DNA of 44,655 bases. It comes from Anabaena subtropica FACHB-260. GTDB taxonomy: Bacteria; Cyanobacteriota; Cyanobacteriia; Cyanobacteriales; Nostocaceae. Where the stretch lies: the NCBI RefSeq assembly GCF_014697105.1, contig NZ_JACJRF010000047.1, forward strand, positions 1 to 44,655, in the 5' to 3' direction. The notes under the pieces were generated by a model. The model searched no databases and was not told the origin of the DNA. It saw nothing but the letters and a program-made list of their open reading frames with translations. The first letter of the stretch is position 1. Each line of letters opens with the position of its first letter. Positions 650 to 17,783 of the stretch are shown here, piece by piece. The position numbers and the translations under genes were made by a program.

Positions 650-1402
650 TTATTCTGTTAAATCTTCTGGAGTCAGGTTAGAGTGAACCACTTCACCATC
701 TTTAAACCAAACAATGCGTTGGGTTTGACGGGCAACTTCTGGTTCATGTGTCACCATAACTACAGTAATACCACTACTATTTAATTCACTAAAGATATCT
801 AATACCTCTTGGGTTGTACGCGAATCAAGTGCGCCTGTTGGCTCATCTGCTAAGAGTACTACGGGACGATTAACAATGGCACGGGCGATCGCTACTCTTT
901 GTTGTTGTCCACCTGATAGTTGAGTTGGTTTGTTGCTAAGACGTTTTTCTAAGCCTACACGAATCAAAGCTTCTGTAGCGCGATCGCGTCTTTCATTAGG
1001 GTTGACTTCAGCATATACCATCGGTAACATGACATTTTCTAAGGCAGACAATTGGGGTAAAAGATGGAATTGTTGAAACACAAACCCCAATTTTCTGTTG
1101 CGGATATTTGCCAAGTCTGCATCATTCATTTGTGCCACATTCACATTATCTAAATAATAATGTCCTCCAGTTGGACGATCCAAACAGCCAATAATATTCA
1201 TCGCTGTAGATTTACCAGAACCCGAAGGCCCCATAATTGAACAATACTCACCCTCATTGATGACCAAATTTACATTATTCAAAGCTTTGACTTCGGTTTC
1301 TCCACTACCGTAAATTTTAAAAATGTTTTCTAGGCGAATAATTGCCGATTTAGGTACAGGATGAGGAATTAGGGAATCAGTAATAGAAATAGTGTTTGCC
1401 AT
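650..1402 (-). CDS. ABC transporter ATP-binding protein (MacB/LolD/DevA type), orphan
   Basis: A 250-aa nucleotide-binding subunit that would power an inner-membrane FtsX/MacB-fold permease. It has the Walker A motif GPSGSGKS near residue 59, the Q-loop in FVFQQFHLL, the signature [14 protein letters not shown], Walker B VVLLADEP followed by TGALD, and the switch histidine in VTHEPE. The MLPMVYA segment and CLDRP context are typical of the MacB/LolD/DevA subfamily, and it is clearly paralogous to the ATPase at 13851-14525. An N-terminal extension of about 20 residues precedes the domain. No permease or adaptor gene is adjacent; the adaptor-permease pair at 16317-18997 lacks an ATPase, so a shared use is possible but is inference only. 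Confidence 0.9.
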
Positions 1403-1643
1403 AATAATTTAGTTATTAACCTAAGTTGCTAGTTATCAATTAAGAACTGGTAATGGGTGAAAATCTTTTTTTAATTACCAATTATCGGTTATTACCAATT
1501 CTAAACACTACATCTACATCCAGCACTTTTCTTCTGGATGAGTTACATTACCCTCACCTCCAGCCTCTCAACTCTCACTTCAACAAAACCTCTTGTCTAA
1601 CGTGTTTTCAGTTACAGTTCTGCATCGCATGATTAAGCCACAA

Positions 1644-1659
1644 TGTTGATTAATCAACA
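1644..1659. promoter_or_regulatory. Perfect 16-bp palindrome, candidate operator
   Basis: TGTTGATTAATCAACA is perfectly self-complementary with no loop and ends 38 bases before the ATG of the channel-like gene at 1698, in the 295-base gap between two divergent genes. The position and symmetry suit a dimeric regulator. No known regulator is recognised. Confidence 0.4.
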
Positions 1660-1697
1660 CAAAGTGCAGCCTAACCTGTAAATCATGCTGCTGTTAC

Positions 1698-3395
1698 ATG
1701 AAACCTCGAATTATTGTATGTGGCTTAGGACGAACTGGATATAAAATCTTCCGTTTGCTGAGACAACAGGGTGCGTTTGTAGTCGGTATTCATCACAAAC
1801 CAATCCCTGGCGAAGCTGGAGGAGATGTAATTGTTGGCAATTTGCACACTGCTGCTACCCTAACAGCAGCTGGAATTCATCAAGCACACACTTTAGTGAT
1901 TGCTGGCTCGGATGATGCGGTGAATTTGTCAATTATGATGCAGGCAAGGGTACTAAATCCGCATATTCGGATTATTAACCGTTTTTACAATACTAATTTA
2001 GGCGATCGCCTAGATCAAACTCTGCCAGAACACCTAAGTATGAGTGTGGTGGGATTAGCCGCACCATTGTTTACTTTTGCCGCTTTGGGAAATCAAGCGA
2101 TCGGGCAGATCAAGTTATATGAGCAGACTTGGCCTGTCCAAGAAGAATATATTGATGAAGATCACCCGTGGTGTGGTTGTAAGTTAAGTGACTTCTGGGA
2201 AAATCCAGCCCGGATGCCGATTTATTATTTACCTGTAGAAGGGGAGATGAATTTGGTATCTGCGGTACTGGCTGGACAAGAGTTAAGAATAGGCGATCGC
2301 TTAATTGTAGGTATCCAACCCCGTATCCGTTCTTCTCGCAGATCCTTAATCAGAAAATGCCTCAAAGTTATTACTAGTTTGCGGCATTTTCAACAACATG
2401 GGCAATCAGTCATTGTGGGTGCGATCGTCTTACTAGTAATAGTGATAATTGCCACAATCACTTATATGTCTACTGAATTGAGTTTATCAATGGTTGATGC
2501 ACTCTATTTTTCTGTAGGTATGATTACTGGTGCAGGTGGTAATGACAAAGTAGCAGAAAATGCCTCCAACAGTATCAAATTATTCACTGTTGTCATGATG
2601 CTGGTTGGTGCAGCTGTGATTGGTATTTGGTATGCCATGCTCACCGATTTTGTCTTGGGTACACGCTTCAAGCAATTTTGGGATGCTGCTCGGATTCCCC
2701 AACGCCATCACTATATTGTCTGTGGCTTAAGCGGCGTTGGTAGCAAAATTGTCCAGCAACTCCATACCAGTGGTTATGAAATAGTAGTTATTGAAACTGA
2801 CTCCAACAATAAATATATCAACTCTGTACGGGGGCTAGGTATTCCCGTAATTCAAGGTGATGCAAGTTTCCGCACCATACTTAAAACTAGCAATATAGAT
2901 CATGCTGCTGCTGTGTTGGCTGTAACCAATAATGATGCGACTAACCTAGAAATTGCCCTGAAAGCTAAAGGTTTAGTTCCCAAAATTCCCGTAATTGTCC
3001 ACTATGCCGATCCTGATTTTGCCGGGATGGCACAACAGGTATTTGACTTTGAGGCGGTGTTAAGTTCAGCAGAATTGGCAGCGCCAGCATTTGCGGCGGC
3101 GGCTTTGGGGGGACGCATCCTGGGTAACGGCATTACAGCAGATAAACTTTGGGTAGCTTTTGCCACTTTAATTACACCATCACATCCTTTTTGTGATCAT
3201 TTGGTGAAAGATATAGCCATGTCTGCTGATTTTGTGCCTTTATATGTAGAAACAAGTGGTCAAAGGATTCACGGCTGGGATTTATTAGCAACCCACCTCA
3301 ATGAAGGCGATGTTTTATATTTAACTATGCCAGCAAACCAGTTATATAAATTGTGGCGTGATGAACGAGCCTGTAGAGCAAATACCCAACTTTAA
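1698..3395 (+). CDS. Potassium-channel-like protein with two TrkA-N (RCK) domains
   Basis: A 565-aa membrane protein of the RCK/TrkA-N channel group. Order: TrkA-N domain with NAD-binding GLGRTG near residue 9; a linker; TM1 around 237-257; a pore loop; TM2 around 292-315; then a second TrkA-N domain starting with GLSGVG near 344, plus a TrkA-C-like tail. NAD(H) or nucleotide binding to both cytosolic domains is expected to gate ion flow. The pore loop reads SVGMITGAGGND where potassium channels carry TVGYG, so the selectivity filter is degenerate and ion specificity cannot be assumed. The RCK-TM-TM-RCK order is unlike the usual TM-TM-RCK. Single gene, ending in a shared hairpin with gyrA. 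Confidence 0.8.
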   Translation: MKPRIIVCGLGRTGYKIFRLLRQQGAFVVGIHHKPIPGEAGGDVIVGNLHTAATLTAAGIHQAHTLVIAGSDDAVNLSIMMQARVLNPHIRIINRFYNTNLGDRLDQTLPEHLSMSVVGLAAPLFTFAALGNQAIGQIKLYEQTWPVQEEYIDEDHPWCGCKLSDFWENPARMPIYYLPVEGEMNLVSAVLAGQELRIGDRLIVGIQPRIRSSRRSLIRKCLKVITSLRHFQQHGQSVIVGAIVLLVIVIIATITYMSTELSLSMVDALYFSVGMITGAGGNDKVAENASNSIKLFTVVMMLVGAAVIGIWYAMLTDFVLGTRFKQFWDAARIPQRHHYIVCGLSGVGSKIVQQLHTSGYEIVVIETDSNNKYINSVRGLGIPVIQGDASFRTILKTSNIDHAAAVLAVTNNDATNLEIALKAKGLVPKIPVIVHYADPDFAGMAQQVFDFEAVLSSAELAAPAFAAAALGGRILGNGITADKLWVAFATLITPSHPFCDHLVKDIAMSADFVPLYVETSGQRIHGWDLLATHLNEGDVLYLTMPANQLYKLWRDERACRANTQL

Positions 3396-3399
3396 TATC

Positions 3400-3450
3400 T
3401 TCTCTGTGTCTTTGTGTTTCTGTGGTAATTAAACACAAAAACACAGAGAA
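3400..3450. terminator. Bidirectional hairpin terminator
   Basis: Two 20-nt arms (3400-3419 and 3431-3450) are complementary at 19 of 20 positions around an 11-nt loop. It sits between the convergent ends of the channel-like gene (3395) and the topoisomerase gene (3461). Runs of T on one side and A on the other would serve both directions. Confidence 0.8.
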
Positions 3451-3460
3451 AAATTTCTGA

Positions 3461-5968
3461 CTACCGCACTTCGATGATCGCAATTACTTTTTCATCGCGG
3501 TTGAGTTGAAGGATGCTTTCACCTTTACCATCTCTACCCAAGATAGGTACTGTGTCTGTGGGTATCCGCACTACGCGGTCTTTATTGGTAAGTAGTGCCA
3601 CTTCCACAGAAGCTTTTGTCCCAACCATAGCCGCGAGAGTATCGGTTTTATTGACAAATTTCATGGATTGTGTGCCTAAATCACCACGATTTGCTGACTT
3701 GATCTGATTTACAGGCAAGCGTTTAGCATATCCCTCTTGGGTGACTAACAATAAATGTTCTGCTTGTGCCGAACTAACACAGCCCACCATTTGCTGATTT
3801 CTTAGCAGTCGGAATGCTTGTAAACCCATAGCAGTCCTACCCATAATTGGCAGTTGTTCATCATTGGCTGGGAACCTCAACAATCTTCCCCCAGAACTAG
3901 CTAAAATTAGCTGCTCTCCTGGTTTGCTGAATTGAGTAAATAGCAATTCATCATCATCTTTGAGTTTTAAAATCGTAATGCCACGACGGGTCAGGTTAGT
4001 TAATTCTCCCAAAGACAGGCGCTTAATTCTTCCTTGCTTAGTCAAGAGAATTAATTGTTGAGCATTCAAATTTTCTGGGAGTAAAAAGCGACTGACTACA
4101 GGTTCTTGATTACCTTGAGCTGTACTTGTCAGCATGGTAATCAATGGTGTTCCCCGTGGAGAACGTCCAGTGGTTGGGGGAATATCTCCCACTTTCACAG
4201 GGTAGAGTTTGCCACCATTGGTAAGTACTAGTAACTCTTTGTGGGTGTCAGTTAAGTTAGTTTGAATAATGAAGTCATGTTCTAGCAACCCATTTTCCAC
4301 CTTAGATTTTTTTCCTGGCTGAATCCGGCGTAAATATCCTCGGTGGGTAATCTCTAAAATTGCTTCTTCCGCAGGTTCTAAAGATTGAGAATTTTCTTGT
4401 TCCTCATCTGCTGTAACAGAACTGTTTTGTTTGTTTGCCTTTTTATTTTTCGGTAGTTCTTCAACAGTACTAGCACCTAATTTAGTGCGTCGAGGATCGC
4501 CGTATTTACGTTTGAGCGATCGCAACTCTTTTTTCAGCGCCTTGAGTAATTCCTTGCGATCGCTTAATAACCTCTCTAACAAAGTTATCTGTTCGCTCAG
4601 TTCGCCAAACTCGCGTTGTAAGTTCTCCTGTTCTAAGTTGGTGAGGCGACGTAAGGGCATCGCTAGAATTGCATCTGCCTGATCTTCACTCAACTCTAGT
4701 CGGCTACACAAGCTAATTTTTGCCGTACTACCATCAGCAGATCGGCGCAAAATTTCGATGACTTCATCTAAACTAGATAAGGCTTTGAGCAACCCTTCGA
4801 CTGTATTTAATCTACTGGCTGCCTTACTCAACTCATAACCGTAGCGACGATTGAGTGTGTGTTCTCGGAAATTGAGAAACTCCTGCAACAATTGCCGCAA
4901 ACTTAACTGGCGGGGTTGTCCCTCAACTATGGCTAAAAGAATTGCCCCAAAGTTAGTTTGCAAAGCTGTTTGATGATACAAATGTTGGAGAATTTCTTGG
5001 GGGTTGGTATCGCGTTTGAGTTCAATGACTACGCGCATCCCTTCGCGATCGCTTTCATCCCGCAGATCGGAAATTCCTTGCAAGCGACCTTGATTGACTA
5101 ATTCCGCCACTTTTTCAATCCAGCCTGCCTTATTCACCTGATAAGGCAATTCAGTAACGATAATTGCCATCCGGCGTTTGCTTCCCCTGCCACCAGGAAC
5201 TTCTTCGACTGTAGCAACACCCCGTAAAACAACACTACCTTTACCTGTGATGTATGCTTCTCGAATCCCAGCATCACCAACTATTTCCCCTCCCGTGGGA
5301 AAGTCTGGCCCTGGAATTAACTCTAATAATTTTTCATCGGCTAAATCTGGTTGGTCAATGAGAGCAATCAAACCATCAACAATTTCCCCTAAATTATGAG
5401 GGGGAATATTTGTTGCCATTCCGACAGCAATTCCTGAACAACCATTGAGCAACAAAAACGGCAACTGAGCAGGTAATACTGTCGGCTCTTGTTGGGAGTT
5501 ATCAAAGTTACCAACAAACTCTACAGTTTCTTCACCAATTTCTGTCAGCATTCCCTCATGACTAATGGGAGCCAGACGCGTTTCTGTATAACGCATCGCC
5601 GCCGGCGGATCATTATCGACGCTGCCAAAATTGCCATGTCCACCGAGTAAAGGGTAACGACTGGAAAAATCCTGCACCAGCCTCACCAAAGCATCATAAA
5701 CAGCTTGATCGCCATGAGGGTGGTATTTACCCAGCACATCCCCCACCACACGAGCGCATTTACGGTATGGTCTATCGGGGGTCAAACCGAGTTCGTGCAT
5801 GGCATACAAGATCCGCCGATGCACTGGCTTTAAGCCATCACGAACATCTGGTAATGCTCGGCCAACAATCACACTCATGGCATATTCAAGATAAGACCGT
5901 TGCATCTCTGTGTGCAGGGCTGTTGTGATTACCTGTCCCGTTGAGAGAAGGTTTAACTGTTTTGCCAT
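3461..5968 (-). CDS. gyrA: Type IIA DNA topoisomerase subunit A (GyrA/ParC)
   Basis: An 835-aa DNA breakage-reunion subunit that pairs with a GyrB/ParE ATPase to change supercoiling or decatenate DNA. The N-terminal winged-helix/tower region carries the active-site tyrosine Tyr127 in [11 protein letters not shown] Lys-rich linker near 510-530 leads to a C-terminal beta-pinwheel with repeated blades. In the quinolone-determining loop ([12 protein letters not shown]) the residue equivalent to E. coli Ser83 is Gln88. I see no clean GyrA box (QRRGG[RK]G); the closest stretch is TRRGITILK. Cyanobacteria often carry two A subunits and this may be the second, ParC-like one; the GyrA name is therefore provisional. 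Starts with ATG; divergent from the response regulator upstream. Confidence 0.85.
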
Positions 5969-6195
5969 GAGTTTTTTCCCTGAAATTGAATTACATAAAA
6001 GTCGCTGGCACTAAACACGGCAGCAAACACAGCATAACGGATGAAATGGAATTCCTAACACAATCTTGATTATCACCAGATAACAAGCCGTAGTATTATC
6101 CTTGATGACAGGAAAGCATATTGATACTAAAAATAAGCTAGACAACTACGTTTTTTCTGGTTGTCATCCCCATCACCTCTATAAATAAAATTCTC

Positions 6196-6600
6196 ATGAA
6201 AACTGTTCTGATTGTCGAAGACGATCTAATTAATGCTCGTGTTTTTTCTAAAATTTTGACCAAACGCGGTGGCTTGGGTGTGAAACATACTGAAAATGTA
6301 GAAGAAGTCATGAAAATTGCTCAGTCAGGAGAAGCAGACCTGATTTTAATGGATGTTTCTTTATCTAGAAGCGTTTACCAAGGTAAATCTGTTGATGGGA
6401 TCAAAATTACACAAATGTTAAAGTCTGACCCACAAACGGCTAACTTACCTGTAATTTTAGTAACAGCACACGCTATGGAAGGCGATCGCGAGAACTTTCT
6501 CCGACTGAGTGGTGCTGATGGCTATATTTCTAAGCCTGTTGTAGACCATCAGCAGTTTGTTGACCAAATCATAGCTCTTCTCCCTAATGACAACCACTGA
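6196..6600 (+). CDS. Single-domain response regulator (CheY-like)
   Basis: A 134-aa receiver domain with no output domain. Acidic pocket residues Glu8, Asp9 and Asp10 are followed by the phospho-acceptor Asp53 in LMDVS, Thr90 in LVTAHA and Lys113 in ISKP, so it should be phosphorylated by a histidine kinase. The loop after Asp53 is slightly longer than usual (about residues 57-66), as in Hik/DivK-like receivers. No kinase gene is nearby, so its partner is unknown. Transcribed alone and followed by the hairpin at 6626-6648. Confidence 0.93.
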   Translation: MKTVLIVEDDLINARVFSKILTKRGGLGVKHTENVEEVMKIAQSGEADLILMDVSLSRSVYQGKSVDGIKITQMLKSDPQTANLPVILVTAHAMEGDRENFLRLSGADGYISKPVVDHQQFVDQIIALLPNDNH

Positions 6601-6625
6601 ACACTCCAGACATTTTTAGGATTCT

Positions 6626-6648
6626 TCGCCCAAAAAAAGATTGGGCGA
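6626..6648 (+). terminator. Hairpin after response regulator
   Basis: A perfect 8-bp stem, TCGCCCAA / TTGGGCGA, with a 7-nt loop, 26 bases after the stop codon. No strong T run follows, so it may be a weak terminator or a 3'-end stabilising hairpin. Confidence 0.6.
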
Positions 6649-6808
6649 TGGTTCCCAATTTTATAGTATAAAAGTACTATGAAATATTATTAATAAGCAA
6701 GTGGTAAGGGGAAATAAGCGGATAGGGGTGTAAGGGAAAGAACTATTTGCCAAACTCAGTATCTTTAAATGAGATGAATTATTGATTTCACCCACCCCCT
6801 ACATCTCT

Positions 6809-6832
6809 AAACCCCTAAACCCCTAAACCCCT
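6809..6832. repeat. Tandem 8-bp repeat (AAACCCCT)x3
   Basis: Three exact copies of AAACCCCT ending four bases before the stop codon of the TPR gene on the minus strand. Part of the short tandem repeats common between genes here. Confidence 0.75.
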
Positions 6833-6836
6833 AATT

Positions 6837-7709
6837 TCACTGTCTAGTAGCAGGAGTGTTTTCTGCCTGACCTAAAGCAGCCTGAATACGTGGTAACTCC
6901 AAGAATTGTTTGGTATCAGATAGTAAACGATCGCCCCAAAGATTTTCTTTGAGAAAATCTAAATCGGCATAACGCTGATCAATGCGAAGTGCGGCTTCTC
7001 CTAAAGATAAACCTTGTTGGCGATCGCCTTTGGTGTACAAGGCAACTGCTAGAGCGAGTAATGGTTCTGCGGCTTGTTTATCAAGGGACACAGCATTTTG
7101 CCATTGTTTAATGGCTTCATCGACTTTACCTTGTTCGTAATTGATTAAGCCGATGTTATTAATTGCCGGCCAAAACTTTTTATCTTGAGCTACAGCTTTG
7201 TTGTATTGAGCGATCGCCTCTGGTAATCGTCCTACCATGTAGTAAGCATTACCCAAATCAAACCAACCGTCTGCTTCGTTAGGTTTTAACTTCAAACCCG
7301 CTTGGTAATGCTCAATAGCTGCTTGATATTGTTTCTGCTGAAAACTAGCCGAACCCAAAGCAAACAGAACATCTCCATTCTTGGGATTGATTGTTTTGGC
7401 TCTATTTAAGGACGCGATCGCTGCATCATAGTTTTTAGTCTGCAATTGCAAACCACCCAAGAGAAACCAAACTTTATCATTCCCAGGAGCTAGCTGGCTA
7501 GCCAGTCTTGCTCTTGCTAAAGCCAATTCATACTGTTGAAACTGTCCTAGTTGAGCCGCTTCTTGGGCTAAACTCAACCCTTGCTTCTCCAATTTTGCTG
7601 TATCTAGCTGCAATGTATGAGGTATCAGCGCCTGTGCATGAGCTGCTTGGGGCATACTCCACAAACCGCAGACAACCAGAAGAGAAATTAAACTAACGTG
7701 TTTAGGCAC
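6837..7709 (-). CDS. Secreted or lipid-facing TPR repeat protein
   Basis: About 290 aa. A signal peptide (hydrophobic SLISLLVVCGLW, likely cut after AHA) is followed by tetratricopeptide repeats that fill the rest, with phrases such as GDVLFALGSASFQQKQYQAA and ADGWFDLGNAYYMVGRLPEA. A periplasmic protein-protein interaction role is the usual expectation; no partner is visible. The frame is open to a TTG at 7736, but a GTG at 7709 preceded by AAAGGCGG gives a proper short n-region before the hydrophobic core, so I prefer it. Same strand as the PAD gene, 112 bases or more downstream of it; an operon is possible but not shown. Confidence 0.8.
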   Translation of the reverse strand: MPKHVSLISLLVVCGLWSMPQAAHAQALIPHTLQLDTAKLEKQGLSLAQEAAQLGQFQQYELALARARLASQLAPGNDKVWFLLGGLQLQTKNYDAAIASLNRAKTINPKNGDVLFALGSASFQQKQYQAAIEHYQAGLKLKPNEADGWFDLGNAYYMVGRLPEAIAQYNKAVAQDKKFWPAINNIGLINYEQGKVDEAIKQWQNAVSLDKQAAEPLLALAVALYTKGDRQQGLSLGEAALRIDQRYADLDFLKENLWGDRLLSDTKQFLELPRIQAALGQAENTPATRQ

Positions 7710-7848
7710 ACTACCGCCTTTTGAGCCACAAATCAAATAATCTTTCAGCTAGCTTAAACGATCTCCGCCCAAGGTGGCAGGTAAATGTTACAGTCGTTTG
7801 CGCGGCCAAGGGGATGGAGATACTCTTGCACCAGTGGAGAGTGAGCAG

Positions 7849-8817
7849 TTAAGTGTTAATTGGTTCGATCTCCCACCATTTTTGGGCAAAAGGTTGTCGG
7901 CTTGTGTTAGTACCACAATGAATTTCCCCGCCACCCCGAAAATAAGGATCCCAATCATCAAGAAAGTGACAAACTAAACCCAAAGGTTCTAAAATTTCTT
8001 TAACGTAAGCTTCAAATTGACATTGATCATTTACTTTGGGTCCAAATGGTTTGGGAATAGCAAGATGTTGCTTGAGAACGATCATATTGACCATGTTTGG
8101 GAAAAATGTTTCGGCTCGTCCATCGCCATCATCTGCAAACAACCCAGGTATGTCGATAATGTCTTCTTCTGCTAAACCTAATTCCTCTTTGAGAACTTCT
8201 CGGTTCCAGTTAATATATTCTTGAAAACGCTGGTTATCACGAGCTAAGTCTTCATTCTTGAGAACATCTGCCACACTAATATCAGCAGGTTTGTTATAAA
8301 GTTTTTTTCCTTGCCGTAATAAGACCTGAGAATGTCCTTGAGCTAGTAAGTGTTTGAGCAGATCATAACACTTGCCAGGGCTAGCTAAAAGTAGTTTAAA
8401 TCCTTTAGGGTTAGAAGCAGGAACAAAGGTCATAAACTCGTCAATGTGACCTACACTGAGCCAGTCAGAAAAAATTTCCAAGGGAGCTTGAATCTTTTGG
8501 GCATAAAGAAAGTTTCGCAAGACTTTTAACATCCGCCGGGGCTTTTGCATAATTTCTTTACGTGTTCCCCCAAATATCAGACGACCAAAGGGATAATGAA
8601 CGCCTTTTGCGGTTACTGGTGGAGAAACTTCTAGATTACCAAAAGAGTCTAACTTTGTGGGTTCATAGCAGCTTTTGCGGGCTACATAACCAAAATCAAT
8701 TCCTAATAGTTTGCGTTGGGCGAAGTGAACTAATCCGCGATCGCGTGGCGAATCAAATACTACGTGTATGCAGTGTCCCGGTGCTTGAGTGTAACCAATT
8801 TCAATTTCGTCTCGCAT
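7849..8817 (-). CDS. PAD catalytic domain fragment (C-terminal half)
   Basis: The 322-aa open frame from the first ATG after the in-frame stop. It holds every catalytic residue of the PAD family: Asp3 in MRDEIEIGY, His124 and Asp126 in SVGHIDEF, and Cys301 in EIHCGTN. The calcium-site phrase VVFDSPRDRGL and FFPNMVNM/KPFGPKVN match animal PADs closely. A residue that binds calcium in PAD4 (Gln349) is Arg here. Translation from this ATG would start exactly at the catalytic Asp strand and leave out about 45 residues of the domain, so a free-standing active enzyme is unlikely. There is no good Shine-Dalgarno before it. Confidence 0.75.
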   Translation of the reverse strand: MRDEIEIGYTQAPGHCIHVVFDSPRDRGLVHFAQRKLLGIDFGYVARKSCYEPTKLDSFGNLEVSPPVTAKGVHYPFGRLIFGGTRKEIMQKPRRMLKVLRNFLYAQKIQAPLEIFSDWLSVGHIDEFMTFVPASNPKGFKLLLASPGKCYDLLKHLLAQGHSQVLLRQGKKLYNKPADISVADVLKNEDLARDNQRFQEYINWNREVLKEELGLAEEDIIDIPGLFADDGDGRAETFFPNMVNMIVLKQHLAIPKPFGPKVNDQCQFEAYVKEILEPLGLVCHFLDDWDPYFRGGGEIHCGTNTSRQPFAQKWWEIEPINT

Positions 8818-8907
8818 CCAAGGATCGTCTTGATGAAACTCAAAAGGAACAGGATCTAGTTGTGCGTCGGCTTTACCAACAACTTTTCTCAGTTCCTCAA
8901 TAAATTC

Positions 8908-9843
8908 TTAGTTAGCTCCCTTAGATAAACGCGAAACAAAGACAGTGATTGGAGATAAGGTATTAGGAGTCATCATCCAAGGAGCCACTCGAAAAATCAC
9001 GCGATCGCTGTAGATGATTTTGCCATCTTTGACGAGATTTAAATTAATCTCCACCATGCCATCGAAATCAACATCGGGATAACTTAATCCTTCAATAGCC
9101 AGAATAATGTCTCTGTCAGTATTCCTGATTTTTGCTTTTGTTCTCTTCCCCCCAATTAACTCATAACCACTTCTATCTAATTCGTCATAAATCCGAATAC
9201 GTTTGGCTGTGTCTTGGTCAACTGACAAGTAAAGCTCGCATCCAGCAGGTAAATCTCTTAAGCCAACCTTGCGAACAATCATCAAGCTAAAATCTTTCAG
9301 ATCCAGCAGCCCTTGAATATAGTTATCTTCGCCATCATATTTACCATCAGAATGAACGAGGTCGCGATCGCTATTTACTAATAGGATTGCACCATGTCCA
9401 TTAATTCCCCATTGCCAATCCCCTTTATGAGAATTATTTTCTTCAATTACTCCGTCTCTATCTGCATCCACATCTAGACAAATTCGCAGACAGGTTAGCT
9501 TGAATCGAACTTGACTTAGCTGACGACCTGTATCATCTTGAAAGGTTATTTCTAAAGAACGGTCTTTTAGCTGATCACTAAAGGTTCTTGCCAGCAGGGT
9601 AATCTCTGAAACTTGCTTGAGAGGAAGGGGGGTTTGTATAGCAATCGGTTGCTTGGTGCTGGAATAAATTTCGATTTCTCCCCGTGTTTTGAAGCTAACA
9701 ATTGCCTCCTCAGAAGGCACAAGATTTTTTAAGGATATTTGCAGTGGCTGACCGACAACTAGAATATTTTCGTAATCTCTAGTTTTTTGTGGAGAACGTG
9801 AGTGTAGGGTATTAGATGTTTCAATGGGTAATAAACTTTTCAT
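8908..9843 (-). CDS. PAD N-terminal and middle domains (fragment before the stop)
   Basis: A 311-aa frame starting at ATG. Residues 1-118 form a beta-rich region where animal PADs have their N-domain; residues 121-160 contain the calcium-binding middle-domain signature DVDADRDGV...W-WG...GAILLVNSDRD, nearly as in vertebrate PADs. It ends with RVAPWMMTPNT followed by SKGAN and the TAA. Alone it has no catalytic residues. The upstream 408 bases have no other gene. Confidence 0.8.
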   Translation of the reverse strand: MKSLLPIETSNTLHSRSPQKTRDYENILVVGQPLQISLKNLVPSEEAIVSFKTRGEIEIYSSTKQPIAIQTPLPLKQVSEITLLARTFSDQLKDRSLEITFQDDTGRQLSQVRFKLTCLRICLDVDADRDGVIEENNSHKGDWQWGINGHGAILLVNSDRDLVHSDGKYDGEDNYIQGLLDLKDFSLMIVRKVGLRDLPAGCELYLSVDQDTAKRIRIYDELDRSGYELIGGKRTKAKIRNTDRDIILAIEGLSYPDVDFDGMVEINLNLVKDGKIIYSDRVIFRVAPWMMTPNTLSPITVFVSRLSKGAN

Positions 9844-10251
9844 AATTTATGAACATAAAAATCTTGTGCCTGTTATAGTTTCTCATAAATGATTTTGGAG
9901 TCATATCATCCCTGATAGAGATAATTCTCCTTTCTATCAGAGATTTTTAGGTAATTTTCAAGGGAAGAGAATTTGTCTACTCATCACATCTAAACTGTGG
10001 ATTACTCCCGCCAGAACGGATATGTTTGGTTGTGAGAGCAATAGTAGAAATGTTTTCTTTTATTTTTAGGAATTGACTAATAATTACGAATTATTATGAC
10101 TATAGTCATACATCACTAGGTAAATATTAGTGACTTTTGTCACTTACAAAATCCTCACTACTTGGCTGATAATTGGTGACATAGGTAGGCAAATTCCCAA
10201 CGCCTTAACCTCAACAGCAAGCAACATCAGCACAAATAAGGAATCAGTTTT
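9844..10251. other. Intergenic region between divergent PAD and secreted-protein genes
   Basis: 408 bases, AT-rich, no gene seen. It holds an inverted repeat CTGATAGA/TCTATCAG (9912-9919, 9933-9940) followed by AGATTTTT, a perfect 16-bp palindrome at 10095-10110, and AGTGAC-TTTT-GTCACT at 10129-10144. Both divergent promoters should be here but no convincing -35/-10 pair was found. Confidence 0.6.
10095..10110. promoter_or_regulatory. Perfect 16-bp palindrome, candidate operator
   Basis: TATGACTATAGTCATA is fully self-complementary. It lies about 140 bases before the secreted Arg-rich gene and is followed at 10129-10144 by a second short inverted repeat. Two symmetrical sites close together suggest protein binding; the regulator is unknown. 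Confidence 0.35.
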
Positions 10252-10644
10252 ATGTTGAAAAAAAATAGCGCAACTATCTTTTTAGCTGCTGCCGCCCTGT
10301 TTGCACCCATGCTTTTGGCTACCCCTGCCAATGCTGGAAGTAGATATAACAATAGGCAAGTAAACCAAAGAAGACCAGTTTATAGTCAACCAGTTTATCA
10401 GCGACGAGTTCCCCAGCGACAAGTTTATCAACGAGTAGTCAGACTTGGTAACGGTGCTTATAGGCTACCTAATGGGCGAGTTATTCCTGCTAACAGATTG
10501 GTCAGACTACGCAATCCTGGTTATTGGAGATTACCTAGTGGGGATATTGTTCTTCCTAGCCAAGAAATTGTTCCTGTTAGAAGCATAGTCCGACTAAGAG
10601 ATGGTAGCATTAGGCTGCCTAATGGAATTCTAGTCAGACTCTAA
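10252..10644 (+). CDS. Small secreted Arg-rich protein with RLPNG repeats
   Basis: 130 aa, not a family I recognise. A signal peptide (LAAAALFAPMLLA, cut after ANA near residue 28) is followed by a Gln/Arg/Tyr-rich stretch (RPVYSQPVYQRRVPQRQVYQ) and then three related units of about 14 residues at 62-75, 83-96 and 112-125, each V-R-L-x-x-G-x-x-R-L-P-x-G. The mature part is strongly basic. The units look like short beta-hairpins and could bind a surface polymer or membrane, which is inference. Preceded by AAGGAATC at a suitable distance from the ATG. It stands alone, upstream of the exporter operon on the same strand. Confidence 0.75.
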   Translation: MLKKNSATIFLAAAALFAPMLLATPANAGSRYNNRQVNQRRPVYSQPVYQRRVPQRQVYQRVVRLGNGAYRLPNGRVIPANRLVRLRNPGYWRLPSGDIVLPSQEIVPVRSIVRLRDGSIRLPNGILVRL

Positions 10645-10909
10645 TATATACTGCATCAAAAAAGTTTGTAGTGGGGATTTTAGTCCAGATTTGACTCTAG
10701 CGCTGGAGTGCTGGCTGCAACCCTCAAAGCTACCTTGACGAATTACTAGTAATTAATAAATTGCATCATGATGAATTGAAGAAGATACAAAAAACAGTGT
10801 TTTTACATCTTCTTTGAATAACTAGACATAATACATACAGGGCTACCAATATACAGAGCTAGTTATTCATAACTGGTTCTGTATCATATTTTTCGACAAT
10901 GGAGTGCAA

Positions 10910-12454
10910 ATGACAATTGAGACAACACACCCTGTAGATTCACCAGTATTGCTTCCACAGACGAAGAAAAAAGCCAAAATTAATTGGCTGTCTTGGCTGA
11001 TGGTCTTGGGGATTTTAGGTGGTATTGGTTATACTACTTATTACCAAGTAACAGTCCGTCCTCGTCAAGAAGCCAGAAGCAGGGTACCGACACGGTCTGT
11101 ACAAAGGCAGACTCTATCGATTACAGTTTCAGCCAACGGAATGGTTAAGCCTGAACGGTCAGTCAATTTAAGCCCCAAAAATTCCGGCATTCTCAAACAA
11201 CTGCTAGTAAAGGAAGGCGATGTTGTCAAACAAGGGCAAATATTAGCCTACATGGATGATTCCAACTTGCGAGGGCAATTGATCTCAGCACAGGGGCAAT
11301 TAGCACAGGCTGAAGCCAACTTGCAAAAGGCACAAGCAGGCAATCGTCCACAAGATATCGGTCAATCTCAGGCTCAGTTAGATGAAGCGTTAGCCAATTT
11401 ACGGAAGCTAGAAACAGGTAATCGTCCACAAGATATCGCTCAAGCCCAAGCACGTTTAAACAGCGCTCAAGCAAACTTAAATCAAGTAGAAGACGATTTA
11501 CGTCGTAATCAACAACTTTATAATGATGGAGCGATCGCTCTACAAGCTGTCAATCAAAAACGTACAGAACGAGATAGCGCTCAAGCCCAGGTAAATGAAG
11601 CGCAACAAGCACTAGCTTTACAACAAGCGGGTTCACGCCAAGAAGATATTGAGCAAGCAAGAGCTACGGTACGACAAAGACAGGAAGCTTTAGCACTACT
11701 GAAGGCAGGGAACCGCAGAGAAGATATTGATGTAGCGCGGGCCCAGGTAACATCTGCCCGTGGTTCGTTGCAAAATACCCAAGCTCAAATCAATGACACC
11801 ATACTGCGTGCGCCTTTTGATGGGGTTGTTACCCAAAAATTTGCTGACCCCGGTGCTTTTGTCACCCCAACCACCTCAGGAAGTGCCGTTTCTTCAGCAA
11901 CTTCTTCCTCTATTTTGGCTCTGGCTTCACAAAATGAAGTTGTGGCTAATTTATCTGAATCAAATATTGCCAAAATCAGTTTAGGTCAAAGAGTTACGAT
12001 TACAGCAGATGCCTATCCTGGTAAAACTTTTGAAGGTAAAGTCAGTCAGATTGCGGCTCAAGCCACAGTAGAGCAGAATGTCACTAGTTTTCAAGTCAAA
12101 GTATCGTTGACTGATCCGCAAAGATTACTGCGATCGGGGATGAATGTAGCAGCAGACTTCCAAGCTGGTCAATTGGAAAATGCCTTAGTAGTTCCCACAG
12201 CCGCAGTTGTGCGCCGAGAAAATGCCACAGGTGTATTTGTTTCAGGTGCAAATAATCAAGCCGTGTTTACTCCCATTGAAACTGGAGCGACGGTAAATAA
12301 TTTTACTGAGGTAAAATCTGGCTTAAAAGGTGATGAGAGAGTTTTGCTCAGTTTCCCACCAGGAATGCGACCACAATCTACACCAAGAGGCGGAATTTTC
12401 CCCGGTATGGGTGGCGGTCGTGGTGGCGGTCGTTCGGGCAATGCTGCTCCTTAA
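10910..12454 (+). CDS. HlyD/MacA-type membrane fusion (adaptor) protein
   Basis: About 514 aa. A short cytosolic start and one TM helix (LSWLMVLGILGGIGYTTYY) lead to a lipoyl/barrel-sandwich half (VNLSPKNSGILKQLLVKEGD), a long alpha-hairpin, the second half (TILRAPFDGVVTQKFADPG), a beta-barrel and a membrane-proximal domain, with a Gly-rich tail. It bridges an inner-membrane permease to an outer-membrane TolC-type channel. The hairpin is built from repeats around GNRPQDI (or variants), four times. A GTG at 10904 is in frame, but GGAG at 10901-10904 is well placed for the ATG at 10910, so I use that. First gene of an adaptor-permease-ATPase operon (18 bases to the next gene), the order seen in Nostoc devBCA. 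Confidence 0.9.
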   Translation: MTIETTHPVDSPVLLPQTKKKAKINWLSWLMVLGILGGIGYTTYYQVTVRPRQEARSRVPTRSVQRQTLSITVSANGMVKPERSVNLSPKNSGILKQLLVKEGDVVKQGQILAYMDDSNLRGQLISAQGQLAQAEANLQKAQAGNRPQDIGQSQAQLDEALANLRKLETGNRPQDIAQAQARLNSAQANLNQVEDDLRRNQQLYNDGAIALQAVNQKRTERDSAQAQVNEAQQALALQQAGSRQEDIEQARATVRQRQEALALLKAGNRREDIDVARAQVTSARGSLQNTQAQINDTILRAPFDGVVTQKFADPGAFVTPTTSGSAVSSATSSSILALASQNEVVANLSESNIAKISLGQRVTITADAYPGKTFEGKVSQIAAQATVEQNVTSFQVKVSLTDPQRLLRSGMNVAADFQAGQLENALVVPTAAVVRRENATGVFVSGANNQAVFTPIETGATVNNFTEVKSGLKGDERVLLSFPPGMRPQSTPRGGIFPGMGGGRGGGRSGNAAP

Positions 12455-12472
12455 GCTGAATTTTCCAACACT

Positions 12473-13744
12473 ATGCTAAAAATTTTTTATAAAAAAGATA
12501 ATAGCCGTACAGTCCCGTTTCTAGAAATCTTGACGATGGCGGCTGAAACTCTGTGGAGTAATAAATTACGCACAGGATTGACTATGCTGGGTGTAATTAT
12601 TGGGATTGCTTCAGTCATTGCTATCACCTCTGTAGGTCAAGGGGTGCAGAAGAGTGTGGAGCAACAAATCCAAGCATTGGGAACAGATGTCATCCAAATT
12701 TTGGCGGGTGCGCCTAGAGGTGGAAATGTCCGCCAGGGTTTAGGTTCTACTAGCACCTTAACTTGGGAAGATGCAAAAGCGATCGCCCAACAAGCACCCT
12801 CTGCCGAAATTGTCTCTGCTTTCCTCCAGCGAAATGCCCAAGTTGTTTATGGTGGTGAAAACACCTCAACCACAATTTACGGCACAGACTTAAACTACCC
12901 AGATGCAAGAAATACTTACCCCCAATATGGGAGATTCTTTACCCAAGAAGAATTAAACACGGCTGCACAAGTTGCGGTGATTGGGCCGACAGTGCAAAGA
13001 ACCCTCTTTGGGCAAGGTATCACACCCATAGGTGAGAAAATTCGCATTCAAGGAGAAGCTTATGACGTGATTGGCATTACGGAACCAAAAGGTTCTCAAG
13101 GCCCAACAGATAGAGATGACCAGATATTTATCCCGCTCACAAGTATGTCGAAGCGTCTGGTTGGGAATAATGCGCTAACTGGCGTTGCTGTGAGTGGAAT
13201 TTTAGTTAAATCTAGCAATACAGAGCAGTTAGAGGCGGCACAATTTCAAGTCACGAATATCTTACGCTTGCGTCATAATATATACCCACCACAAGCCGAC
13301 GACTTTCGTTTAACTAACCAAGCTGATATTGTGAGTACCTTTACTAATGTGGTAGGTTTATTTACAATCATGGTAGTAGCGATCGCTGGCATTTCCCTAG
13401 TCGTTGGCGGTATTGGGATTGCTAATATCATGCTAGTGTCTGTTGTCGAACGCACCAGAGAAATTGGTATTCGCAAAGCAGTAGGAGCCACTAATTCAGC
13501 CATTCTCAATCAATTTTTAGCTGAGGCGATCGTCATTTCTATTGTTGGCGGTGGTATAGGTATAGGAACTGGCATTCTCATTGCTTTTGCTGCCGCTACT
13601 ATTTTTAAATTTCCCTTTGTAATTTCTATTTTATCAGTCATCGTCGGTTTTGCTCTTTCCCTAACCGTCGGTTTAATCGCCGGGGTAATTCCCGCCAGAA
13701 ATGCCTCCAAACTAGATCCCATCACCGCCTTACGCAGTGATTAA
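12473..13744 (+). CDS. MacB/DevC-type ABC permease
   Basis: 423 aa. Layout is that of the FtsX/MacB permease family without a fused ATPase: TM1 near residues 38-58 (LGVIIGIASVIAITSVGQG), a large periplasmic MacB_PCD domain (about 60-285), then three TM helices in the FtsX domain with the coupling phrase SVVERTREIGIRKAVGA and the end motif PARNASKLDPITALRSD. Works with the adaptor just upstream and the ATPase 106 bases downstream to move a substrate from the inner membrane or periplasm outward; the substrate cannot be told from sequence. The N-terminus is about 15 residues longer than in the paralogue at 17780. Confidence 0.9.
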   Translation: MLKIFYKKDNSRTVPFLEILTMAAETLWSNKLRTGLTMLGVIIGIASVIAITSVGQGVQKSVEQQIQALGTDVIQILAGAPRGGNVRQGLGSTSTLTWEDAKAIAQQAPSAEIVSAFLQRNAQVVYGGENTSTTIYGTDLNYPDARNTYPQYGRFFTQEELNTAAQVAVIGPTVQRTLFGQGITPIGEKIRIQGEAYDVIGITEPKGSQGPTDRDDQIFIPLTSMSKRLVGNNALTGVAVSGILVKSSNTEQLEAAQFQVTNILRLRHNIYPPQADDFRLTNQADIVSTFTNVVGLFTIMVVAIAGISLVVGGIGIANIMLVSVVERTREIGIRKAVGATNSAILNQFLAEAIVISIVGGGIGIGTGILIAFAAATIFKFPFVISILSVIVGFALSLTVGLIAGVIPARNASKLDPITALRSD

Positions 13745-13850
13745 ATTAAGTACACCACTTCATTAATTTGTAGTGGATTGATATGAGAAACACTCTGTGT
13801 ACCTTAATGTTAATCCCCGCGTTACTCTGCGTTAAAAAATAGTACTGCTT

Positions 13851-14525
13851 ATGACAACAATGATTTGGATGGAATCCATTACTAAAACTTACCAGTTAGG
13901 AGAAGTTTGCGTTCCCATACTCAAAGGAATTGAACTTTCTATTGAGGAAGGAGAATATGTTTCCATCATGGGTGCATCAGGTTCTGGTAAATCCACACTC
14001 ATGAATATTCTAGGATGCCTGGATCGTCCTAGCGCTGGACACTATATTTTTGAAGGTAGAAATTTGACTACTTATGATGATGATGAATTAGCTTATATTC
14101 GCAATCAAAGAATAGGTTTTGTCTTTCAGCAGTTTAATTTGTTAACACGGGCAACAGCCTTAGAAAATGTCATGCTACCAATGGTTTATGCTAACTTACC
14201 CAAACACAAACGTCGTCAAAGAGCATTAGAAGCATTAAAAAAAGTGGGACTGGGAGAACGTATTTTAAACCGCCCTAGTCAACTTTCTGGTGGACAACAA
14301 CAACGGGTAGCTATTGCTCGCGCCTTAGTAAATCGACCAGCTTTAGTTTTAGCAGACGAGCCAACGGGAGCTTTAGACACTGAAACATCTCATGAAGTGA
14401 TGAGTTTATTGACAGAATTAAATCAGCAAGGAATCACAATTGTTATTGTTACTCACGAACCAGATATCGCTGCTCAAACCAAGAGAGTTATTCGAGTTCA
14501 AGATGGTTTAATAGTATCATCATAA
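13851..14525 (+). CDS. MacB/DevA-type ABC transporter ATP-binding protein
   Basis: 224 aa, a single nucleotide-binding domain with Walker A GASGSGKS, signature [14 protein letters not shown], Walker B LVLADEP and switch histidine in VTHEPD. It is third in the adaptor-permease-ATPase set and should energise the permease at 12473-13744. It resembles the orphan ATPase at 650-1402, notably in CLDRP, FVFQQF and [10 protein letters not shown], which shows both belong to one subfamily. It could also serve the second permease at 17780-18997, which has no ATPase gene of its own. Confidence 0.92.
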
Positions 14526-14850
14526 TTAGATATAATGTATAAAATAAAAAAGAAAGACTTAACAAAACTTTTACGCGTCTAGGTAAGAGGAGCGTAAGAC
14601 TTTTCAAGGCAGACGCTTTTCTACATTAAGAGACGATTTATAAAGTAAAGGGCATTGCCCAACCTACAAATACTTAGATTTTTTCAATCATCAAATAGGA
14701 TTTTTATAAGTACGAAAGGCTGAAATAATAAAAGTTCGTAGTAAGGGCTTTAGCCCTTCACAACCTGGCAAGAGAGCGATAAATTGCTCACTACGAACAC
14801 AACTTTATTTTATATTTAATTGTGTCTACCTACTTAATCTCTACTAGACA
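14526..14850. other. Intergenic region rich in structured repeats
   Basis: 325 bases without a gene. It contains GCGTCT...AGACGC around 14575-14615, a GGGCATTGCCC short palindrome near 14649-14659, and the junction-forming repeat at 14734-14798. This looks like a landing place for Nostoc-type interspersed repeats after the exporter operon. Confidence 0.6.
14734..14798. repeat. 65-bp interspersed repeat predicted to fold as a three-way junction
   Basis: Outer arms GTTCGTAGT (14734-14742) and ACTACGAAC (14790-14798) pair perfectly over 9 bp. Inside are two further hairpins: AAGGGC/GCCCTT (14743-14758) and GAGC/GCTC (14774-14789). The arrangement of one closing stem and two inner hairpins is typical of Nostoc dispersed repeats. 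Confidence 0.7.
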
Positions 14851-14946
14851 TCACCCATCATATCTATTTGGGTCTTTTTTCTCCTTTTTTTTCTGAGGAT
14901 CTTTCTTAGCTTTTTTGGTTTCTCTATTGCCATTTTTCTTCGACAT
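14851..14946 (-). CDS. Small lysine-rich protein, 31 aa
   Basis: An ATG-started frame of 31 codons: begins MSKKNGNRETKKAKKDP and ends DPNRYDG. A good Shine-Dalgarno (GGAGAG) sits 6 bases before the ATG. About 13 of 31 residues are Lys; the peptide is hydrophilic, with no membrane segment, and probably disordered. Basic small proteins of this look occur in cyanobacterial genomes as unnamed families; binding to nucleic acid or ribosomes is a guess. It shares strand with the Hlip and ApcA-like genes just upstream (73 bases from the Hlip stop), so it may be cotranscribed with them. Confidence 0.6.
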   Translation of the reverse strand: MSKKNGNRETKKAKKDPQKKKEKKDPNRYDG

Positions 14947-15018
14947 AATTACTCTCCAATGTAAAGTTAAGTGAAATAACTACAATGCCAATAATTTCTT
15001 TTACAAGAGATAATTCCT

Positions 15019-15198
15019 CTACAAAATGTTCCAAAAGTGGAGAAAGCCTTGACCGGAGAATACTTCCATCAAAGCATCTGCTAAAAAGCCTATCATTGCT
15101 AGGCGATCATTCCAATTTTCGGACTGATGAGTAAAGCCCCAAAACCCAAGATTGCGTTTATTAGAAATTGTTTTTGTAGCTTTTGTCGTGTCTGACAT
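15019..15198 (-). CDS. hli: High-light-inducible protein (Hlip/SCP, one-helix CAB-like)
   Basis: 59 aa with the chlorophyll-binding helix motif ENWNDRLAMIGFLADALMEV, the Hlip form of E-x-x-N-x-R-x-A-M-x-G-F. Hlips bind chlorophyll and carotenoid in the thylakoid, quench energy and protect photosystem II and chlorophyll synthesis under stress. The frame is open to an ATG at 15222, but the ATG at 15198 has GGAG eight bases before it and gives the usual Hlip length. It follows the ApcA-like gene by about 55 bases on the same strand, which suggests a light-stress pair. Confidence 0.88.
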   Translation of the reverse strand: MSDTTKATKTISNKRNLGFWGFTHQSENWNDRLAMIGFLADALMEVFSGQGFLHFWNIL

Positions 15199-15252
15199 AA
15201 TTAATGCTCCAAAATTTTCCATGTTATTTTTGAATTTTGAATTGTTAATCCC

Positions 15253-15738
15253 TTACTGCATAGCAGCGATTAGGTAGTCGAAGTAATTATTAACTTCACT
15301 ACTGTCTTCAACAGAAATCATTGACATGGCAACATTCTTCATTGCACGGATACTTTCTGCAACAGCCTCAATCGGAGTACCGAGGGATCTATACATTTCG
15401 CGGACACCAATGACCCCAATTTCTTGAATTGGCGTAGAATCACCGGCTACAATACTGTATGTGATTAAACGTAGGTAGTAATCCATGTCCCGCAAGCAAG
15501 TTGCAGTCATTTCTTGACCATAGGCGTTACCACCAGGTGAAACAATATCTGGGCGTTTCTGAAATAGTTGGTTTCCAGATTGCTTAACAATGCGCTCTCT
15601 GTTCTCTGTTAAAACTTGAACTAGGCGGAGACGACTCCCAGCAGTTGTGGCGAACCTCTTGATCTGCTCAATCTCACCAGGGCTAAGATAGCGTGCTTCA
15701 GCGTCCGCATTGAGAATCGACTTTATGATCAGACTCAT
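15253..15738 (-). CDS. apcA: Allophycocyanin alpha subunit paralogue (ApcA-like)
   Basis: 161 aa, full length for a phycobiliprotein subunit. The bilin-attachment cysteine lies near residue 81 in [19 protein letters not shown], and [11 protein letters not shown] and [12 protein letters not shown] are strongly ApcA-like. ApcD-type terminal emitters differ at these places (for example ALCLRDYGW), so I call it an alpha subunit. The main apcABC operon is not here; no beta subunit or linker is adjacent. In the last third it departs from typical ApcA ([22 protein letters not shown]). It is probably the second copy, ApcA2, known in Nostoc genomes; its place in the phycobilisome is not established from sequence. 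Start ATG has GGAG 10 bases upstream. Confidence 0.87.
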
Positions 15739-15848
15739 TAATAGAATACTCCTGCAAAAAAAATGAATTAATGAATTTATGTTTGCTCCCCTAGATTGGG
15801 TAAACCCAGAGGCGCATTACCTATTTGTGAGTCACTTATGTATCTGAT

Positions 15849-15978
15849 TAGCCAACATTGGCTCTAGTAAAACTTTATTCCCTCAAATTGGCTTGAATGA
15901 GGCTGATTTCTTTGAGGTTTGCTTGCCTAAAATTTTTTTCCCGGCTGCATATCGCCTTAAAGCTTCATTGGCATCCAT
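15849..15978 (-). pseudogene. Decayed 5' fragment of a pentapeptide-repeat protein gene
   Basis: On the minus strand an ATG at 15978 opens M-D-A-N-E-A-L-R-R-Y-A-A-G, the usual start of cyanobacterial pentapeptide-repeat proteins. One base later in frame the sequence continues E-K-N-F-R-Q-A-N-L-K-E-I-S-L-I-Q-A-N-L-R-E, a good A-N-L/x-F pattern, so a single G appears lost from a GGGG run near 15943. Then come in-frame stops, separated by S-F-T-R-A-N-V-G, and the homology ends. Only about 45 codons remain. No functional product is expected. Confidence 0.6.
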
Positions 15979-16316
15979 ATCGGCTGCCTCACTATGTGTA
16001 GCGTTTTCGCTGGTTTTCTATTTCTATTATAGACCGAGATTTCTTCTGTGTGCTAGTAACAATATTTCCCCTTGAGTTTTTACCTCAATTAGGGAACTGC
16101 AACTATGGGGTAGCTTGTGCAGTTGGTTTGTCATCTGACGATTTCACCCATTAAGTTTCAGGCATATAAATATACTAAAGGCTAGAATTAAGATAAATCG
16201 GCAACCATATCACCTCTTACTCGTCTATTCATGGGATTTGAATAAATATTTATTTTCTGACTTTTGTTTCTCATAACCAGACCACTCCCCGAACCAAAGT
16301 TAATAGGTTGCTACTT
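15979..16316. other. Intergenic region upstream of second exporter pair
   Basis: 338 bases between the pentapeptide remnant and the adaptor gene at 16317. It is AT-rich and should carry the promoter of the adaptor-permease pair. I see no gene, repeat or clear regulatory motif in it. Confidence 0.5.
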
Positions 16317-17783
16317 ATGATTGCATATATAGAAGTTCCGATTATTGGTAAAATTAAATACCCCACACGTTGGCTAATGGGATTGATAACAGCTGGTGTA
16401 TTGGTAGTAAGTGTAACAACTTATAAGATTTTTCAGCCGGGAAACAATAAACAAGATGTGACACAACTAACAGTTCCGGTGGAAACCAAGAACGTCACCA
16501 TCAGAATTACTGCTAGTGGTAAGGTTGTGCCGATTCAGAGTGTGAATATTAGTCCGAAAAATCCTGGTGTCCTGGCGCAATTATATGTCGAACAAGGCGA
16601 TCGCGTGGAGCAAGGACAAATTATTGCCCGGATGGATGTGGGTGATATCGAAGCCCAAATTGCTCAATATCGTGCCAATGTAGCTCAATCTCAAGCCCAG
16701 TTGGATCAAGCTAAGGCGGGGAATCGTCCCCAAGAAATTGCTCAATCCAAGGCACGTCTAGCACAAGTACAAGCCCAGTTAGCCGAATCTGTAGCTGGTA
16801 ATCGCCCCCAAGAAATTGCCAAAGTCGAAGCCCAAGTTGATGCAGCTCAAGCCAGGGTGAATTACACGGCTGAACAGGTAAAACGTTATCAATACCTTTA
16901 CGATCAAGGTGCAGAGAGAAAACAATTACTCGATCAAGCCATCAGTGAAGATAAAAGTGCTAGAGCTAATTTAGCAGAGGCGCAAAAACAATTGTCGTTG
17001 CTGCAAAGTGGTACTCGTAGCGAAGTTATCTCAGCGAAAGAAGCAGCTGTAACTGAAGCAAGGGCAGCACTAGTGCTTTTACAAGAAGGTAGTCGTCCTG
17101 AAGAAATCGCCCAACGTCAAGCCGCACTGAGAGCTGCCCAAGCACAGTTAGCAGCAGCTAATGTTAGGCTATCCGAAACAGTAATTCGCGCTCCCTTCTC
17201 TGGTATAGTCACTCAGAAATACTCGAATATCGGTGCTTTTGTTACGCCTACAACCTCAGCCTCAAGCAGTGCATCAGCTACTTCTAGTTCCATTGTGGCT
17301 GTAGCACGAGGCGTAGAAATACTGGCGCAAGTCCCAGAAACTGATATTGGCCGCATCAAACAAGGACAGCAAGTGGAAATTGTCGCAGATGCCTATCCTG
17401 ATCAAGTTTTTCAAGGTCGTGTCCGTTTAATTGCGCCGGAAGCGGTAATTGAACAAGGTGTGACATCCTTTCAAGTACGGGTGGCTATTGATACGGGAAT
17501 AGATAAACTGCGATCTGGCTTGAATGTAGATTTGACCTTTTTGGGCGATCGCGTCAGTGATGCTTTAGTATTACCAACTGTGTCTATTGTCACCGAAAAT
17601 GGTAAAACAGGTGTTTTAGTGCCAGATACCAACAATAAACCCCAGTTTCGAGAAGTCACAGTAGGCGCACAAATCGAAGACCAAACTCAAGTTTTATCAG
17701 GCGTAAATCAAGGCGATCGCGTGTTTGTTGACTTACCCCAAGACTACAAAATCCAACAGGCCAAAGAGAAAGCAAATCAATGA
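16317..17783 (+). CDS. HlyD/MacA-type membrane fusion protein, second copy
   Basis: About 488 aa, paralogous to the adaptor at 10910. One TM helix (LMGLITAGVLVVSVTTYKIF), a lipoyl half (VNISPKNPGVLAQLYVEQGD), a long coiled-coil hairpin with four GNRPQEI/GTRSEVI/GSRPEEI units, the second lipoyl half (VIRAPFSGIVTQKYSNIG), a beta-barrel and a membrane-proximal domain. It lacks the Gly-rich tail of the first copy. A TTG at 16308 is in frame, but the ATG at 16317 after AATAGG is the likelier start. Its stop overlaps the start of the permease by 4 bases (ATGA), so the two are translationally coupled. Confidence 0.9.
   Translation: MIAYIEVPIIGKIKYPTRWLMGLITAGVLVVSVTTYKIFQPGNNKQDVTQLTVPVETKNVTIRITASGKVVPIQSVNISPKNPGVLAQLYVEQGDRVEQGQIIARMDVGDIEAQIAQYRANVAQSQAQLDQAKAGNRPQEIAQSKARLAQVQAQLAESVAGNRPQEIAKVEAQVDAAQARVNYTAEQVKRYQYLYDQGAERKQLLDQAISEDKSARANLAEAQKQLSLLQSGTRSEVISAKEAAVTEARAALVLLQEGSRPEEIAQRQAALRAAQAQLAAANVRLSETVIRAPFSGIVTQKYSNIGAFVTPTTSASSSASATSSSIVAVARGVEILAQVPETDIGRIKQGQQVEIVADAYPDQVFQGRVRLIAPEAVIEQGVTSFQVRVAIDTGIDKLRSGLNVDLTFLGDRVSDALVLPTVSIVTENGKTGVLVPDTNNKPQFREVTVGAQIEDQTQVLSGVNQGDRVFVDLPQDYKIQQAKEKANQ

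Follow-up and report, generated by a model that had tools for sequence, protein, structure and literature searches.

A lone in-frame stop codon in a probably horizontally acquired peptidylarginine deiminase gene of Anabaena subtropica FACHB-260

Peptidylarginine deiminases (PADs) with three domains have been described from cyanobacteria in PMC8826395, together with their deiminase (PADI) activity and a proposed transfer to animals, and this three-domain enzyme is considered there to be ancestral to the PADs of animals. According to that report, the N-terminal domain (PAD_N) is left unannotated by Pfam in cyanobacterial PADs, and the cyanobacterial PADI tree is said to mirror the species tree. 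We analysed a contig of 44,655 nucleotides from Anabaena subtropica FACHB-260 (NZ_JACJRF010000047.1; the whole contig is referred to as the window), the minus strand of which carries a PAD gene of this type broken by a single TAA. An earlier note, made from the letters alone, had offered a recent null allele, a sequencing error, and readthrough or recoding as explanations. Our analysis points to a probable nonsense pseudogene of very recent origin, derived from a PAD gene that was most simply acquired by horizontal transfer.

The gene resembles the cyanobacterial PADI of Clade Ai (PMC8826395) in its PAD_M and PAD domains as detected by Pfam, in its catalytic residues, in its length, and in its closest relatives, among which Chlorogloeopsis fritschii is one of the examples given in that report. 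It differs in that it does not form one uninterrupted reading frame, being cut by the TAA at codon 312, and its relationships are at odds with a tree that mirrors the species tree.

The interrupted PAD gene and its relatives

The gene and its parts are as follows.

7849..9843, minus strand: PAD (peptidylarginine deiminase) gene with one interruption, 664 codons plus terminal stop
8908..8910, minus strand: in-frame TAA at codon 312, next base G, placed past position 33 and ahead of position 39 of the PAD (catalytic domain) profile, which has 395 positions
8911..9843, minus strand: upstream open part of 311 codons, with the N-terminal region, PAD_M, and PAD-domain positions 2-33
7852..8907, minus strand: downstream open part of 352 codons, with the remaining catalytic domain and all four catalytic residues
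7849..8817, minus strand: open reading frame (ORF) of 322 amino acids from the first ATG/GTG/TTG past the stop (ATG at 8817)

The reverse complement of 7849-9843 contained exactly one internal stop, the TAA at codon 312, which bears out the earlier note's description of a lone nonsense codon in an otherwise intact frame of 664 codons; the note had left the strand unstated. Its distance of 30 codons to the next ATG was likewise accurate: the ATG at 8817 is the first ATG/GTG/TTG past the TAA and starts two codons ahead of Asp345. The upstream piece matched PAD_M with residues 120-272 (E 9.4e-47) and PAD-domain positions 2-33 with residues 277-308, and the downstream piece matched PAD positions 39-395 (E 1.3e-141). 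Pfam scores were far over the cut-offs for both PAD (PF03068; 472.7 bits, cut-off 25) and PAD_M (PF08527; 159 bits, cut-off 24.8). In a whole-genome search, the two parts were scored as one match of 518 bits with one TAA inside, and the genome (5.81 Mb, 104 contigs, 99% complete) gave no further PAD match. Chance is no explanation for two long stretches of the same family that share a reading frame.

We then compared the gene with its relatives. In the search of the family, 26 of 217 genomes gave a PAD match, as did 5 of the 13 genomes of the genus (this one included), a patchy distribution. Stops lay inside only two of the 26 matches, namely the window and the short fragment L026 (TGA); another match, L025, was a fragment some 110 residues long. 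Scanning named genomes yielded 37 loci, and names were transferred from these to matches in the family search by an identical stretch of 900 bases. From the two sources we selected 27 full-length, non-duplicate loci, leaving aside duplicates, fragments (L025/L055, L026, L012/L031), the broken L039, and distant or partial loci (L050-L052, L056-L063). Codon 312 was a sense codon in all 27 (Lys in 11, Glu in 8, Ala in 5, Arg in 2, and Gln in 1), and the stop in the window removes essential residues. Asp345, His466, Asp468, and Cys643, which we take to be the catalytic residues from alignment to PAD2, were all present and each was identical in 27/27 relatives, in agreement with the earlier note that the catalytic residues are kept. 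The length match to animal PADs claimed there also held, given that a relative of the same length (L002) aligned with residues 38-675 of the 681 residues of human PAD2.

Broken copies were found elsewhere as well. The PAD of Gloeocapsopsis crepidinum LEGE 06123 (L039:3450-5354) consists of segments in two frames with three stops within the aligned parts, which is a case of independent decay, and Calothrix sp. NIES-4105 has a PAD fragment only. This genome is therefore not alone in showing decay of PAD.

Codon 344 (8812-8814) encodes Arg beside the catalytic Asp, a position occupied by Gln in PAD2 and in 17 of the 27 aligned cyanobacterial PADs. In human PADs, this Gln is a calcium-1 ligand. 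Initially the catalytic half gave the impression of departing from conserved residues, Arg344 for example, where four PADs of the same genus have Gln; Arg344 is common to 10 of the 27 relatives and thus a trait of several PADs, which may alter calcium dependence.

Origin of the gene and its insertion site

The surrounding locus was examined through the following features.

3461..5968, minus strand: gyrA-type gene (DNA gyrase/topoisomerase IV subunit A), by which regions were anchored and vertical descent was gauged
6837..7736, minus strand: TPR-repeat protein gene, left flank, in 12/12 same-genus regions
10252..10644, plus strand: small hypothetical protein gene, right flank, in 9/12 same-genus regions
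7815..10047, no strand: insert in the comparison with G002 and G012, the closest two genomes, where a different sequence of about 340-385 bp stands instead

We compared gyrA-anchored regions from 12 other genomes of the genus, one of which (L112) ends at a contig end. No PAD match was found in any of the 12, and both genes flanking PAD were present in nine. In G002 and G012, homology of the flanks stopped at about 7814 and resumed at about 10048, leaving a near-empty site. This comparison with close relatives at the same locus had been suggested in the earlier note as a check on the stop, and it bears on the origin of the whole gene. Homology between donor-type loci and the window spanned 7859 to 9926/9958, and none of the other window genes tested was found in the fetched stretches of those loci.

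The protein tree conflicted with the divergence of the host genomes. The window PAD paired with that of Cyanocohniella sp. LLY (support 83), followed by Chlorogloeopsis-type PADs (87), and four PADs from the window's own genus fell in another clade. The PAD of LEGE 11386 (Nostocales cyanobacterium) was the nearest by DNA identity (86.5%), yet it grouped with Calothrix-type PADs. Synonymous divergence (dS) from the window was lower for PAD than for gyrA in comparisons with LEGE 11386 (G105; 0.45 and 1.02), Cyanocohniella (G049; 0.57 and 0.95), Chlorogloeopsis fritschii PCC 6912 (G045; 0.50 and 1.79), and G047, which has the same genus label as G045 (0.58 and 1.82). With the sister genome G002 the order was reversed (PAD 1.35, gyrA 0.41). 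G002, the gyrA of which is 93% identical to that of the window, carries a different PAD elsewhere in its genome, 65% and 78% identical by halves.

Given the conflict between PAD and gyrA dS and the near-empty site in close relatives, the gene would most simply have been acquired horizontally after the split from G002 and G012. A single deletion in the ancestor of G002 and G012 alone could make the transfer somewhat older than their split from the window. We also considered vertical descent with loss elsewhere, which is disfavoured by the different PAD that G002 has at another place, by the absence of PAD here in 12/12 regions, and by PAD and gyrA divergences that disagree in both directions. 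No carriers of the gene were found among viral_contigs, scanned once with two short peptide patterns, or in a plasmid collection searched once by blastn.

The interval 7737-10251, flanked by the TPR gene and the small hypothetical gene, is variable in the genus and possibly prone to insertions. By eye, L108 and L113 contain ORFs for TetR-like regulators there, and L107 has two other ORFs (426 and 401 amino acids) in the place where the window has PAD. In the two closest genomes, tandem GGGGATT-type heptamer repeats lie at the left border of the near-empty site (L104 at about 7504-7539 and L105 at about 7639-7716).

Probable early decay and the alternative explanations of the stop

We next measured selection on the two halves of the gene with a Goldman-Yang codon model, using 12 of the 28 aligned sequences and the protein tree and leaving out codon 312. 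The ratio of nonsynonymous to synonymous substitution (omega) on the window branch was 0.16 upstream of the stop (background 0.21) and 0.19 downstream (background 0.13). Neither difference from background was significant (2dlnL, twice the log-likelihood difference, 1.04 upstream and 1.81 downstream), and omega = 1 was rejected for both halves (2dlnL 50.2 upstream and 27.4 downstream). The 95% range for the downstream half, taken from a likelihood profile, was about 0.11-0.34. The downstream/upstream ratio of 1.19 was the highest of 12 terminal branches (others 0.25-0.87), a hint of relaxation that is not significant. If the downstream half has been neutral since the stop arose, at most about a quarter of the branch would have elapsed since then.

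At conserved sites, where the earlier note had proposed to count substitutions on the two halves, there was no excess of changes. Among sites invariant in 23 other close sequences (the 27 relatives minus four distant ones), the window departed at 1/89 upstream and 1/171 downstream, compared with 0-3 and 0-4 in the others; with all 27 relatives, it departed at 1/193. Relaxed constraint on the whole gene was accordingly rejected, given these few departures and the occurrence of Arg344 in 10/27 relatives. We had also considered low omega as proof of function, an argument that we dropped after the near-empty site and the dS conflict had suggested that most of the branch predates the transfer. The low omega of the gene probably records, to a large extent, selection in the donor lineage.

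The reading as a young pseudogene of an acquired PAD agrees with a known general pattern, in which recently acquired genes become nonsense pseudogenes: the window shares with it the lone nonsense codon, the horizontal origin, the patchy family, and some decayed cousins. Of the three options in the earlier note, the recent null allele is thus the best supported, with a single lesion, a stop in 0/27 relatives, and a horizontally acquired copy. Our literature search found no work on arginine deiminase pseudogenes in Nostoc.

Several points weigh against this reading. The TAA is read from the assembly, and most other full-length PADs were found without a stop. No second lesion is present and omega is low in both halves, so that decay is invisible beyond the stop itself; unlike a typical pseudogene of this kind, the window copy shows no significant relaxation after the stop (0.19 vs 0.13). 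As to the transfer, PAD dS was below gyrA dS also for G055 (0.96 vs 1.16) and G043 (1.02 vs 1.77), part of the gap may be a property of the genes, and gyrA dS values above 1 are near saturation. The case for transfer is carried by the near-empty site and by the comparison with G002, in which the contrast runs the other way; an effect of the genes cannot explain that reversal.

The strongest alternative is a base-call or assembly error that leaves the organism's own gene intact, which we regard as unlikely. One wrong codon would be enough in this draft assembly of 104 contigs, and the absence of any other lesion in 664 codons and of excess changes at conserved sites fits such an error. Against it, twelve neighbouring genes (650-18997) aligned over their full or near-full length with G002, G012, or both, and stops were rare elsewhere in the genome, in 2/219 matches of two abundant families, counted within the matched domains only (ABC_tran 2/95, with 150 of 210 candidates scored; Response_reg 0/124). 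Interruptions thus occur in this genome, but stops are not scattered through the conserved domains of ABC_tran and Response_reg. An error would, in addition, have to hit by chance a recently acquired gene that is absent in most relatives.

Another interrupted gene was seen in the same genome: an ABC-transporter ATPase gene (L132, G000:C39:187600-188900) has two in-frame TAGs within an apparent short inserted stretch. This stretch resembles the small dispersed repeats of Nostocales.

Readthrough or recoding, in which UAA would sometimes be decoded as an amino acid to give a short N-terminal form and some full enzyme, appears improbable. Low omega in both halves would speak for it, and in-frame stops in bacterial genes with dN/dS below 1 are reported to be widespread in PMC7918605; the window is like those genes in its lone stop and low dN/dS and unlike them in that its stop was seen in one genome only. 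The same report counts on artefacts in a substantial fraction of in-frame stops and takes functional recoding to be absent from the vast majority of its events. The stop is followed by G in place of the U that is associated with efficient UAA termination (PMC5289835, in which UAAU is named as the most efficient termination signal and UAA as the stop favoured in highly expressed genes). Against readthrough, the low omega is probably mostly inherited from the donor lineage, and the stop is shared by none of the 27 relatives. A search for tRNAs gave 42 matches (150 of 360 candidates scored), of which the 41 outside the window were fetched in 40 stretches; ARAGORN called 40 tRNAs in 39 of these stretches and one in the window, and none of the 41 had a stop-decoding anticodon, in a list that lacks tRNA-Leu(UAA) and tRNA-Ile(GAU). 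No Rfam element exceeded its gathering score at the locus, the only match in 7600-10300 (E up to 1) scoring 18.5 against a gathering score of 80. No strong structure follows the stop: the 101 bases from the stop onward folded slightly better than shuffles (z -1.27; 20/200 shuffles as good), and the stretch around the stop folded no better than shuffles (z 0.39).

A low-output state after transfer might be imagined, in which a near-cognate tRNA leakily decodes UAA to yield traces of a calcium-dependent deiminase together with an N-terminal/PAD_M fragment that could be a calcium-binding regulator. We hold this to be quite improbable, and nothing that we found calls for leaky decoding. The earlier note had tied readthrough to a gene otherwise under selection, a premise that these data cannot establish: a large share of the measured branch was probably spent in another lineage, so that the gene gives no ground for inferring selection in its present host. 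Readthrough is therefore unsupported, and in its favour we found no tRNA with a stop-decoding anticodon among the 41 called, no aligned relative with the same stop, no recoding element, and no plausible second start.

A functional split, with the upstream part and a re-initiated C-terminal part acting jointly or separately as two proteins, is the least probable explanation, for although the ORF past the stop begins with an ATG and includes the four catalytic residues, the stop lies off the domain border with PAD-domain positions 2-33 upstream of it, a restart would lose 30 more codons and cut into the catalytic domain by starting two codons before Asp345, no clear ribosome-binding site was seen by eye at the usual spacing ahead of the ATG at 8817, and no aligned relative has a stop at codon 312.

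Under the reading as a young pseudogene, a segment of about 2.1-2.2 kb with a three-domain PAD gene would have come from a lineage of Nostocales close to Cyanocohniella/Chlorogloeopsis and landed with the TPR gene on one side and the small hypothetical gene on the other. A single nonsense mutation at a position free to vary would then have made it an early pseudogene. We infer that the TAA is a genuine mutation that arose after the transfer. Translation would end after 311 residues, giving PAD_M without the catalytic domain, and the downstream part would have no start that restores the whole catalytic domain; presumably no full-length enzyme is produced, and its loss would be neutral or nearly so. 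The stop on its own looks like an ordinary case of early gene decay. The gain is modest: on this evidence, a three-domain PAD can pass horizontally from one lineage of Nostocales to another and then break, which qualifies the view in PMC8826395 of a cyanobacterial PADI tree in step with the species tree and bears on the dispensability of citrullination in cyanobacteria.
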